Positions 27,610-49,495 of a stretch of DNA of 64,000 nucleotides are shown in pieces. The position numbers were made by a program, and so were the translations under genes. How positions within the stretch are numbered: position 1 is the first letter of the stretch; every line of letters starts with the position of its first letter. The stretch lies in contig NZ_CM001368.1 in assembly GCF_000177215.2 (NCBI RefSeq), positions 1,984,001 through 2,048,000 on the forward strand, given 5' to 3'. The stretch is from Solidesulfovibrio carbinoliphilus subsp. oakridgensis (GTDB taxonomy: Bacteria > Desulfobacterota > Desulfovibrionia > Desulfovibrionales > Desulfovibrionaceae). The notes beneath the pieces were generated by a model that saw only the letters and a program-made list of their open reading frames with translations, made no database searches and was not told the DNA's origin.

Positions 27610-27660
27610 GATGCCTCCGGCGGCCGGGGGGGATCATCCCCCCCGGACCCCCTGGACGGG
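27610..27660 (+). repeat. Dispersed 3' repeat, copy 2
   Basis: Core GATGCCTCCGGCGGCC at 27610, then GGGGGG-ATCAT-CCCCCC hairpin and GGACCCCCT. It begins 4 bases after the secA stop. Confidence 0.85.
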
Positions 27661-34308: not shown

Positions 34309-34550
34309 CGGGAACCGACGAGACGGACATCGCGGCCAAGGAAGCGGAATTGTCCGCCAGGATGGAAGCGCTGGCCGCGCGCAAGGCGGTCGTGGAAAAA
34401 CAGGTGCGCGAACTCATGGCCGCCGAGGACCACAAGGCGGGTATTTCCCATGCCCAGGCCATTTTCGCGGCCAAACAGGAAAAGCTGGCCCTGGAGACGG
34501 AACTCGAGATCGCCCGGCGCCAGAAAAAACGGCTCACCATGTCCTTTTGA
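34305..34550 (+). CDS. Small coiled-coil protein
   Basis: An 81-residue, highly charged protein predicted to be almost wholly helical and coiled-coil (KEAELSARMEALAARKAVVEKQV...ETELEIARRQKKRLTMSF). Its ATG overlaps the aldehyde dehydrogenase stop (ATGA), so it is translated from the same message. No family is recognised. Its end overlaps the 3' end of a convergent gene by 17 bases. Confidence 0.65.
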   Translation: MTGTDETDIAAKEAELSARMEALAARKAVVEKQVRELMAAEDHKAGISHAQAIFAAKQEKLALETELEIARRQKKRLTMSF

Positions 34551-35274
34551 CGGGGACCGGCCGGCCCGGCTCGGGCGTGCCCGGCCCCACTCCCGGCCGG
34601 ACCCGCGGCCGGGACCCCGCCTCGGGCCGCCCAGGGCGGCCCGACACGGAAGTCGGCCGGCCCGACGACGCGGAATCGGCCTGGCGCAGGGCCTCGGCAG
34701 CCAGCGTGTTGACGCTGAAAAGCATGATGACCGCGTTTATGGCCGCGTCCCGCCGACACCGCCGCCGGGCCTCCAGCAGGACCGGCTGGAGGTGCGTCTC
34801 GATTTCCCGGCCCACCCGGCCGGCCACGGCCCGGAGCAGGGTCTGCGTCGCCGGGTCCAGCATGTCCGTGTCGCCTGCGGCAAAGATCAGGGACCGGGCC
34901 AGATGGGCGAAGGCCGTGGCGGCATCGCCGCCGGTCCGGCCGGCCGGGTCCGAGACAAAGCGCCTGAAAAAGGGGCAGGGCGCGTGGCCAAGCCCCGAGG
35001 CCAGCAGCCGGAAAGCGGCCTCCTGCCCGGTCTCCTCGATGATGGTGGTCACCCGGTCGTCGCGGCACGAGACCAGGACCTTCTGGTGGGAGACGACCTG
35101 GGAGAAGTACTCGAGGGTCGGCAGGACCGTGCGGGCCACCAGGCAGCGCTCCTCGGGCTCGGACCGTCGGCACAGCTCCTCCTCGCCGCAGGGATGCGCG
35201 CCCTCGGGCGCAACCGGTGTGGCGGGATCATAGCGGAATGACGACAGGCCCGGGGCCGCAACCAGAAATTCCAT
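34534..35274 (-). CDS. Protein resembling the sensory half of a sigma-54 activator
   Basis: A 246-residue cytoplasmic protein. The central part, RTVLPTLEYFSQVVSHQKVLVSCRDDRVTTIIEETGQ, resembles the opening of the GAF-type domain of AcoR-like regulators, and RAVAGRVGREIETHLQPVLLEARRR resembles the helix leading out of it. No AAA+ domain or helix-turn-helix follows; instead the protein ends in a basic Pro/Gly tail. It may be a truncated regulator or a stand-alone ligand sensor. The start at 35274 has a GAGGAGAATGCC-type site. A canonical sigma-54 promoter lies 440 bases upstream on the other strand. Confidence 0.5.
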   Translation of the reverse strand: MEFLVAAPGLSSFRYDPATPVAPEGAHPCGEEELCRRSEPEERCLVARTVLPTLEYFSQVVSHQKVLVSCRDDRVTTIIEETGQEAAFRLLASGLGHAPCPFFRRFVSDPAGRTGGDAATAFAHLARSLIFAAGDTDMLDPATQTLLRAVAGRVGREIETHLQPVLLEARRRCRRDAAINAVIMLFSVNTLAAEALRQADSASSGRPTSVSGRPGRPEAGSRPRVRPGVGPGTPEPGRPVPVKRTW

Positions 35275-35700
35275 GGCATTCTCCTCGCGCAGCGGGATCT
35301 TCCCTACTCGCACTTGTGCTCGTGTCGCCGGCGGATGGCAAGCGGTTCGCTTTTCCCGGCCCCCCATTCCCTCTTCCCGCCCTGCCTCCGTCCGGCCCCG
35401 CCGCCCGGGAGCGGCGCGGGACAAAGATTTGTACCGCCTTGGCCCCCACACGGCTCCGGCCCGGCCGGCCGGGTGGCGGGGCCTTGGCCGATCCGCACGG
35501 CCTTCTGATCCTAATCGCATAAAATACAATAGTATTCAGAGAGCTCCCGCCCGGGTACAAAATCCTGAACACCCGTTGGCCGGGTGGCCGGGCCGGGTAA
35601 AAGCATTTGTACCGGTTGGGGGGCCAAAAACCGGCCCGGCCCGGGGGCCGGCAAGGCGCCTTGTGCATAAGTTCCTGTCATACCAACACATACTCGTTAT
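35275..35700. other. Gene-free region with repeated TTTGTAC motifs
   Basis: No gene is seen here. The motif ATTTGTACCG occurs at 35427-35436 and 35605-35614, and its core as GTACAAA at 35555-35561 in the opposite direction. An AT island with the inverted repeat AATAC-AATA-GTATT lies at about 35523-35537. The rest is GC-rich. These are probably promoter or operator sequences of the minus-strand gene, but no single promoter can be picked with confidence. Confidence 0.4.
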
Positions 35701-35708
35701 TTTTTGAG

Positions 35709-35726
35709 TTTGGCACACCGGTTGCT
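35709..35726 (+). promoter_or_regulatory. Sigma-54 promoter
   Basis: The sequence TTTGGCACACCGGTTGCT contains TGGCAC and TTGCT with the invariant GG (35712-35713) and GC (35724-35725) exactly 12 bases apart, the strict sigma-54 geometry. Transcription would begin near 35737. No protein-coding gene starts downstream on this strand; instead a hairpin-rich segment ending in a terminator-like stem follows. Confidence 0.75.
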
Positions 35727-35736
35727 ACGGGTGAGG

Positions 35737-35805
35737 CATCCTTCCTCCGAAAAGGACATTTCAGAAAGCGGCTCCGGGATGGCGACCTGGAGCCGCTTTC
35801 TCGTT
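35737..35805 (+). ncRNA. Candidate sigma-54-dependent small RNA
   Basis: A transcript from the predicted start at 35737 to the terminator-like stem would be about 69 bases. Its 5' part folds as TCCTT (35739-35743) with AAGGA (35752-35756), leaving the loop CCTCCGAA. The CCTCC in the loop is complementary to the GGAGG of ribosome-binding sites. A second, longer stem (35764-35800) ends the segment. The architecture, a C-rich loop followed by a terminator hairpin, is that of many trans-acting bacterial small RNAs. Expression is not shown by sequence alone. Confidence 0.45.
35764..35805 (+). terminator. Terminator-like stem of the candidate small RNA
   Basis: GAAAGCGGCTCC (35764-35775) pairs perfectly with GGAGCCGCTTTC (35789-35800), with a 13-base loop, followed by TCGTT. 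The T content after the stem is only moderate. The convergent gene has its own terminator further right, so this stem is not needed for that gene. Confidence 0.6.
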
Positions 35806-35887: not shown

Positions 35888-35920
35888 AAAAAAAAACGCC
35901 GCCCCGTTGCCGGAGCGGCG
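35888..35920 (-). terminator. Rho-independent terminator of the small Cys-rich protein gene
   Basis: On the minus strand CGCCGCTCCG pairs with CGGGGCGGCG (one G-T pair) and is followed by nine T residues (35896-35888). It starts 24 bases after the stop at 35944. Confidence 0.85.
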
Positions 35921-35943
35921 TGCGAAAGGCTGCGGCCGGGCCG

Positions 35944-36252
35944 CTACTGGACAGGATGCTTGTTGCGGCAGGCCCGTTCCACGCCCCAGGCCTCCTCGTC
36001 ATGCTCGACCGGCATCAGGTTCGACACCATGCAGTTGAGCGCCAGCGGCGAATACTGTTTGCACTCGGGTGCGCCCGGCTCCTGGAAGCGGCACTTGCAG
36101 GCCCGGCGCATGAGCATGCCGCCGTCCCGGGAGGCAGCCTTTTTCGCGTAGAGCATGACGCACTCGGCGTAATTTTTCGGGGCGAATCCCTGGGCCGACG
36201 CCATGGTTGCCGTGCCCAGCACAACGATCAAAGCCAGAATGAAGCGTCCCAT
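35944..36252 (-). CDS. Small exported cysteine-containing protein
   Basis: A 102-residue protein with a signal peptide (MGRFILALIVVLGTATMASAQG). The mature part has six Cys residues (AEC, RRACKC, PEC, LNC, ERAC), suggesting disulfides or metal binding in the periplasm. No known family is recognised. ATG 36252 follows GAGGAGA. A strong terminator follows the gene, so it is probably a single-gene transcript. Confidence 0.72.
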   Translation of the reverse strand: MGRFILALIVVLGTATMASAQGFAPKNYAECVMLYAKKAASRDGGMLMRRACKCRFQEPGAPECKQYSPLALNCMVSNLMPVEHDEEAWGVERACRNKHPVQ

Positions 36253-49466: not shown

Positions 49467-49495
49467 CGTCACGCCCCCCGGCCGCCGGAGGCATC
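49467..49495 (-). repeat. Dispersed 3' repeat, copy 7, core piece
   Basis: Minus-strand core GATGCCTCCGGCGGCC with the start of its hairpin (GGGGGGCGTGACG), 13 bases after the stop of the glycosidase gene. The hairpin is cut by the right end of the IS element. Confidence 0.75.

Follow-up and report, generated by a model that had tools for sequence, protein, structure and literature searches.

Predicted sigma-54-dependent small RNAs of the Desulfovibrionales with complementarity to porin ribosome-binding sites

A probable small-RNA gene behind a sigma-54 promoter

What is transcribed from a sigma-54 promoter that no gene appears to follow? The 64-kb stretch of DNA analyzed here (the window) raises this question at 35711-35726 on the + strand, where TGGCAC-ACCGG-TTGCT was recognized as a -24/-12 promoter by its motif, spacing, and conservation. 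The elements TGGCAC (35711-35716) and TTGCT (35722-35726) place the GG (35712-35713) and the GC (35724-35725) exactly 12 bases apart, as an earlier interpretation made from the letters alone (the sequence-only reading) had pointed out. This is the only site on either strand of the window to match 10 of the 11 letters of the sigma-54 consensus, and none matched all 11. We saw no likely gene start on the + strand just downstream, in agreement with that reading; a short region stands there instead. Counting the C of the GC element as -12 puts +1 at 35737, from which a predicted small RNA of about 65-70 nt (type 1) would extend to 35805 (+ strand), its start set by the promoter spacing and its end by a hairpin. 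The locus is very probably a real small-RNA gene with a sigma-54 promoter, the 5' end CAUCCUUCCUCC, and a terminator-like hairpin.

The 5' seed of this RNA (CATCCTTCCTCC, 35737-35748, + strand) is complementary to GGAGGAAGGATG, which is a Shine-Dalgarno sequence adjoining a start codon, and alignment and complementarity predict that it pairs with porin ribosome-binding sites. Columns 2-12 of the seed are invariant in an alignment of 24 type 1 and type 2 sequences. A sigma-54-driven regulatory RNA whose C-rich part pairs with ribosome-binding sites had been proposed before, and the comparative evidence below supports it, as a predicted pairing. We consider it highly likely that the RNA represents a family of sigma-54-driven, trans-acting, porin-repressing RNAs, similar to MicA and RybB in their targets and to Qrr in their wiring.

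Structure of the predicted RNA

The segment 35737-35815 folded at -36.4 kcal/mol (z -4.35), and none of 200 shuffles was as low. Fold and alignment define a terminator-like hairpin at 35764-35800 (+ strand), in which the perfect 12-pair stem reported earlier was recovered (35764-35775 with 35789-35800) and continues inwards by GGG/CCU around a conserved loop (GGG AUGGCGA CCU). The U tail of this copy is weak (UCGUUGU), and a terminator scan of the window did not report the RNA's own hairpin. The scan did find a separate terminator-like site at 35896-35921 on the - strand, in keeping with the claim that the convergent gene has a terminator of its own. Among the 24 type 1 and type 2 copies, the terminator loop GGGAUGGCGACC is invariant save for one position, which is more than 90% conserved; a second seed and a protein site are candidate readings of it. 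The Solidesulfovibrio loop was also seen at L185, in another genus, and loops elsewhere were of kinds such as GGGUGGUCC or GGCGGUCC. We rejected an open reading frame beginning in the loop (AUGGCGACC), which meets a stop after three codons in several copies.

Type 1 folds a further small hairpin at 35739-35756 (+ strand), with UCCUU (35739-35743) paired to AAGGA (35752-35756) around CCUCCGAA. In the 24-sequence alignment, no row outside the 13 of type 1 keeps its C-G pairs, and the hairpin is absent from types 2 and 3. Because the alignment holds no two-sided change in this stem, we rejected it as a functional element. The suggestion that the hairpin exposes CCUCC gave way to a different picture, in which conservation extends over the entire 5' end, which is mostly single-stranded: the first 16 nt had a mean unpaired probability of 0.84 over 22 RNAs (lowest 0.60). 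Comparison with relatives, which the sequence-only reading had called for, thus upheld the promoter, the C-rich stretch, and the terminator stem as conserved, and yielded no compensatory change for the small stem. We also rejected pairing of CAUCC with the loop GGAUG as a pseudoknot, since the seed is nearly invariant and leaves hardly any room for a pairing change to appear. For types 2 and 3, a specified 17-pair stem was 83.0% paired with a covariation score above all 500 shuffles; its eight pairs with two-sided change were equaled by 33 of the 500 shuffles, and its pair-type count by 339. RNAalifold yielded just 8-10 pairs because the RNA types differ by indels.

Paralogs and distribution of the RNA family

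A DNA search gave matches in all 14 Solidesulfovibrio genomes, of type 1 (CCTTCCTCCGAAAAGG..., the window copy) and type 2 (CCTTCCTCCAAGAAC...), each listed copy having its own TGGC[AC]C...TGCT promoter. The covariance model R1 brought in a third kind, type 3 (CCTTCCTCTGAA..., loop GGGTGGCTCCC), and returned two to five matches in each of the 14 genomes. The source genome carries four promoter-bearing copies with common upstream sites, and all three types are present in it. Across the order, R1 matched 21 of 348 Desulfovibrionales genomes, comprising the 14 of the genus, three sister-genus genomes (two copies in each), G218 with a divergent copy that has a promoter, and three by chance. Among the 33 further R1 matches listed, 28 had a -24/-12 pair, two had decayed promoters (L097, L107), and three were chance; the weak matches L104-L106 were judged chance for want of a promoter. 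At L094, a frame that by eye resembles a phage or mobile-element primase adjoins two type-3 RNAs separated by 2.6 kb, and the L079 stretch, with another type-3 copy, holds a transposase-like frame.

A simpler pattern reached further. We searched the 348 genomes for TGGCAY-N5-YTGCW-N10-15-CCTTCC, with the reversed pattern as the control. Promoter plus CCTTCC occurred in 104 genomes, 21 of 59 genera, and three families of Desulfovibrionales, some of which will be chance; the control gave nine hits in eight genomes (summed from the table by us). Reading of loci in partly overlapping sets of 30, 15, and four showed almost always the same anatomy, with the promoter followed by a leader at the predicted +1 and a terminator-like hairpin that in many cases has a U run. 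The typical leader in other genera is ACCUUCCUYCUUUUGC. The pattern hits L128, L129, L139, L142, and L144, with no such hairpin and no upstream site, were judged chance. Two tandem arrangements were seen along the way: RNAs of genus g5 (L140/L159, L158, L160) contain two AUCCUUCC seeds in tandem, and in G076 (L157) another copy of promoter and leader stands about 500 nt upstream of the tested one, a tandem as in G075.

Palindromes upstream of the promoters

Candidate activator sites precede the promoter in the form of palindromes, listed without a strand. Site 1 (GTAAAAGCATTTGTAC, 35597-35612) lies at -114 from the -24 element and 42 bp from site 2 (GTACAAAATCCTGAAC, of the form GGTACA-N6-TGTACC, 35555-35570), which lies at -156; a third site-like palindrome (GGACAAAGATTTGTAC, 35419-35434) lies 292 nt upstream of the -24 element. 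Sites near -114 and -156 recur in most copies of all three types, and the third palindrome is found at -290 to -294 in 13 of 13 type-1 loci. The dyad GTA-N10-TAC was present in 38 of 47 upstream stretches; 384 control stretches taken from the same loci put the expectation at 0.55. Site spacing was 40-42 bp in 38 of 42 pairs (the genus, the sister genus g17, and L103). Many RNAs of other genera are also preceded by similar sites, where a laxer cut-off gave spacings of 51-53 bp in 10 of 22 pairs and 62 bp in two; all of these spacings are near four, five, or six helical turns. L091 had no upstream site at 8 of 10 letters, and L084 had a single one, at -93.

The palindromes are probable enhancer sites, as judged from their placement and recurrence. 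The source genome has 55 sites with at most one mismatch. At the 15 loci examined, a 10/11 sigma-54 promoter lay beyond the site only at two RNA genes, and weaker (9/11) promoters lay beyond a site at L112, L120, and L122.

Porins as predicted targets

We searched the source genome for GGAGGAAGG-N0-9-ATG and obtained 20 hits versus three for the control. Three of the 20 are DESULF_POR1 porins (NF033939, 379-387 bits, cut-off 250). One other is barrel-like and just below the Pfam cut-off (L265), one is TrpG-like (L260), two are the antisense of RNA genes, about four belong to an extragenic repeat, and several have no long frame. DESULF_POR1 porins were present in 23 of the 24 genomes searched, and G069 had the RNA with no porin at E 1e-10. 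The three Solidesulfovibrio genomes searched had 7-14 porin matches each. We read porin starts for part of the porin matches, 84 outside the source genome plus its own three; L331 and L339 were dropped as their starts could not be located, and the stretches L277, L280, L284, and L289 were replaced by L311, L318, L339, and L338.

Perfect runs of 13-17 nt between a porin leader and the RNA of the same genome were found in six genera. The longest were 17 nt in G191, G076, and G075; 16 nt in G111, G044, and G037, the last two through GCAAAAGGAGGAAGGT with ACCTTCCTCCTTTTGC; and 15 nt in G288 and 13 nt in G286, where the matches belong to unusual AUUGCUUUUGC leaders. G075 has two RNAs and two porins, with runs of 17 and 13 nt. 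The best run was just 8 nt in G117 and G089. In the window's genus, the core GAGGAAGG was present in 16 of the 20 porin leaders read; the three genomes searched in this genus have 35 porin matches. The paralogous RNAs of Solidesulfovibrio differ in their second halves and may divide the porins among themselves: by prediction, L250 is the best partner of type 2 (-30.3) and L249 that of one type 3 (-27.6).

The fit between RNAs and porins was evaluated by exchanging RNAs among 13 genera. The mean best run fell from an observed 12.3 to 8.86 (sd 0.64) on exchange, and none of 200,000 permutations, which are not fully independent since the genera are related, reached the observed value. Permutation by energy and with one RNA per genus gave a like result. 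With everything up to CCTTCC removed, the means were 8.9 and 6.9, again with 0 of 200,000, and the same held without genera g1 and g17. The source-genome porins, having been picked by the pattern, were excluded from the permutation, and second RNA copies of G096 and G076 were left out of the tests. These comparisons show complementarity between RNA and porin ribosome-binding site that co-varies between genera.

Non-porin starts with Shine-Dalgarno-like sequences provided a second comparison, of 65 controls with 51 porins in 14 genomes (Mann-Whitney p 6e-11 for run length and 8e-8 for energy). Runs of at least 10 were found for 13 of the 51 porins versus one of the 65 controls; that match is 23 nt long, so it can only be the RNA gene's own antisense. 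In G330, the energy of the single control gene was better than that of any porin. In the source genome, 122 control starts gave at most 9 nt versus 11-12 for the three porins, which were chosen by the pattern. A genus's own RNA was not the best in eight of the 13 genera by longest run and in seven by energy. With the core masked, own RNAs ranked 5th of 13 sets in g1 (the window's genus) and 10th in g17. In the window's genus, the predicted pairing rests mainly on the core.

Candidate activator of the RNA genes

Scans of the RNA flanks did not find a sigma-54 activator beside the RNAs. In the flanks of L125-L174, a motif scan gave an activator at L142 only, a chance match, and a stricter scan gave none in the flanks of L030-L049 and L079-L109. 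In the window, the sequence-only reading had likened a nearby - strand product to the sensory half of a sigma-54 activator. This divergent 246-aa protein (34534-35274) has no Pfam match at E 0.001, its BLAST comparison with 27 source-genome sigma-54 activators was unconvincing (best E 0.41), and tblastn matched it at only four of 12 type-1 loci of relatives; we rejected it as the activator on these grounds. Its start is preceded, at about 150 nt, by an enhancer-like site.

Genomes with few activators were more informative. The source genome has 35 PF00158 matches, weak ones included. Two reduced genomes that kept the RNA have two strong matches (G187, one 1.41-Mb contig, 98% complete) and three (G122, 99% complete); their weak matches (21.8-26.9 bits) were put aside by judgment as other AAA proteins. 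The only strong match common to both is one GSFTGA response regulator, with a tail like LGISKSLLQYKLKKYGITGH. A GSFTGA response regulator is also present in G082, a genome 73% complete whose activators L228 and L231 were left out of characterization. The source-genome counterpart, L199, has REC, sigma-54, and Fis-type HTH domains and is preceded by a kinase-like frame. We favor, with some reserve, the GSFTGA regulator at G000:C1:2740994 as the activator. From its conservation, L199 is perhaps of the DVU3220 type, a label made less sure by the presence of GSFTGA in DVU2394 and in two other source-genome activators (L202, L221). The L199 stretch held no palindrome site and stops short of the kinase-gene start. 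Site-like matches were noted beside two activators, L204 (a short repeat) and L213.

Table 1 of PMC4641369 assigns GSFTGA to DVU3220 and DVU2394 and lists DVU3220 without a motif, and the available portions of that paper and of PMC3333781 report no binding motif for a regulator of this type. In the available text of PMC3333781, DVU3220 is counted together with one other regulator as conserved throughout Desulfovibrio; it has no DAP-chip data there, and EMSA placed a target of it at the ammonium-transporter operon. The nitrogen role proposed there (PMC3333781) is left unexplained by the porin reading. It is also conceivable, if rather doubtful, that the RNA acts as described under a different sigma-54 regulator, for instance a DVU0151-like protein (L230/L219). 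L230 is also encoded in G187 and its relative L219 in the source genome, but no L230-like protein is among the three strong PF00158 matches of the RNA-bearing G122.

Comparison with known regulatory RNAs

Rfam gave no gathering-threshold match in the window or where the RNAs lie in 18 related stretches; relaxing the cut-off to E 1 brought up sub-threshold matches only (e.g., BjrC68, 15.8 bits versus 39). Hfq (PF17209) was not found in the source genome or in any of 120 sampled Desulfovibrionales genomes (101 of good quality), and five of 14 control genomes were positive, E. coli included. Because Hfq was not found in the sampled genomes, the predicted pairing would probably proceed unaided or with another chaperone.

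MicA, RybB, and VrrA are sigma-E-dependent small RNAs that repress outer-membrane proteins, and RybB pairs through its 5' end. Our predicted RNAs are like them in pairing, by prediction, with omp or porin mRNAs near the ribosome-binding site, and we found the conserved complementarity to porin ribosome-binding sites that marks MicA and RybB, some porins excepted. They differ from these RNAs in having a sigma-54 promoter in place of a sigma-E promoter, in the absence of a detected Hfq gene (the dependence of MicA, RybB, and Qrr) or Rfam match, and in the porin family concerned. Qrr1-5 of Vibrio are governed by LuxO and sigma-54. The likeness here is that paralogous sigma-54 RNA genes occur in several copies behind shared enhancer-like sites, perhaps under a single NtrC-type regulator; the GG and GC at fixed spacing at -24/-12, with candidate activator sites upstream, are the features of sigma-54 dependence. 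The RNAs differ from Qrr in being shorter, with one leader and a terminator, in lacking an Rfam match at the gathering threshold, and in having porins, not quorum-sensing regulators, as predicted targets. RNAs of the MicA/RybB/VrrA type that repress outer-membrane proteins are the subject of PMC1804206, as far as its available text goes.

Closer relatives may be found within the order. The available text of the D. vulgaris regulome papers describes sigma-54-dependent ncRNAs of the same order (PMC4641369) that are targets of DVU0653, DVU0679, DVU1419, and DVU2359 (PMC4641369, PMC3333781), and one of them may belong to the porin-RNA family. They differ in that three of the four are near the regulator's gene, and their own targets are unnamed in the portions available (PMC4641369, PMC3333781). 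We regard DVU1419, DVU0653, DVU0679, and DVU2359 as less likely activators, the published ncRNAs being mostly near a regulator gene and the flanks scanned here giving no activator apart from the chance match at L142. NcS25 of Burkholderia cenocepacia is likewise a conserved small RNA repressing a porin at its 5' UTR and Shine-Dalgarno sequence; by the available text, it differs in having no upstream sigma-54 motif, two Hfq homologs, and an unrelated genus as its host (PMC10117139). Among the matches listed from the open-access literature, we found no description of this RNA family or of porin control by sigma-54 RNAs in Desulfovibrionales.

Proposed mechanism and alternatives

We propose that a phosphorylated NtrC-type response regulator would bind two or three GGTACA-N6-TGTACC sites and loop from the paired sites to the sigma-54 polymerase, turning on all RNA copies together. 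The mostly unpaired 5' end of each RNA (CAUCCUUCCUCC in the window) would then pair with the Shine-Dalgarno region of DESULF_POR1 porin mRNAs, and covering of the Shine-Dalgarno sequence would block ribosome entry and lower porin synthesis; the 3' hairpin would terminate and protect the RNA. Both the transcription of the RNA and repression by pairing are inferred from sequence, and envelope or nutrient state is our guess at the inducing signal. A wider reading is more tentative and in our estimate falls somewhat short of an even chance: an order-wide, Hfq-less outer-membrane circuit, in which a DVU3220-type regulator, the most conserved sigma-54 response regulator of Desulfovibrionales, would work largely through minimal RNAs of seed plus terminator, which co-evolve base by base with porins and fill the role of sigma-E small RNAs.

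A challenge to porins as the specific targets is that the RNA might be a general anti-Shine-Dalgarno RNA lowering the translation of many mRNAs, with porins notable merely for very strong ribosome-binding sites. The 5' end of the RNA presumably resembles the 3' end of 16S rRNA, GGAGGAAGG also stands at the TrpG-like and barrel-like non-porin starts of the source genome (L260, L265), and letters outside the core are unspecific in the window's genus. Over 13 genera, however, the genus-specific letters outside the core co-vary with the porin leaders, and the 122 source-genome controls fall short of the three pattern-chosen porins, which makes the general reading improbable. That same co-variation would go unexplained if the RNA titrated a protein, as a CsrA-like sponge, through the GGA of its terminator loop instead of base pairing. 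The near-invariance of that loop in 24 type 1 and type 2 copies and its recurrence at L185 speak for a sponge, but loops of other genera lack GGA and the element common to the order is the 5' end, not the loop; we give this idea hardly any weight. Slightly less remote, though still very unlikely, is that the same pairing raises porin translation or protects the porin mRNA: this is compatible with the sequence, but covering a Shine-Dalgarno sequence near the start codon is the usual geometry of repression.

The porin-repressing reading proposes a function for a sigma-54 RNA family missing from Rfam, and would assign both a binding motif and a regulon to a response regulator that is widely conserved. 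It also offers a natural experiment in how small RNAs find their targets where an Hfq gene was not found. The outer-membrane permeability of sulfate reducers is dominated by porins, and the circuit could therefore influence uptake, phage entry, and stress among bacteria that play an important part in corrosion and in the gut. In D. vulgaris, the major porin is DVU0799, according to the available text of PMC5686591. The RNA-porin pairs differ between genera, which opens the mechanism to ordinary swap experiments.

Neighboring genes and repeats

Among the 12 type-1 loci compared in relatives, every one gave a match to the aldehyde dehydrogenase and to an 81-aa protein, and 10 gave a match to the TPR protein and to the small convergent protein; in the window, the latter is encoded at 35944-36252 on the - strand and is secreted, to judge by its N-terminus. 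The TPR gene also adjoins the RNA copies of the sister genus. In other genera, RNAs were seen by eye near TsaC/Sua5-like genes (L185, L189, L190) and glycogen-synthase-like genes (L180, L185, L189).

An extragenic repeat, ATGCCTCCGGCGGC, has eight copies in the window, most of them with an inverted repeat behind it. The copies are located at 27611, 29506, 40646, and 48073 on the + strand and at 49494, 30904, 3761, and 63980 (at the edge) on the - strand. This repeat mimics start codons behind purine-rich stretches.
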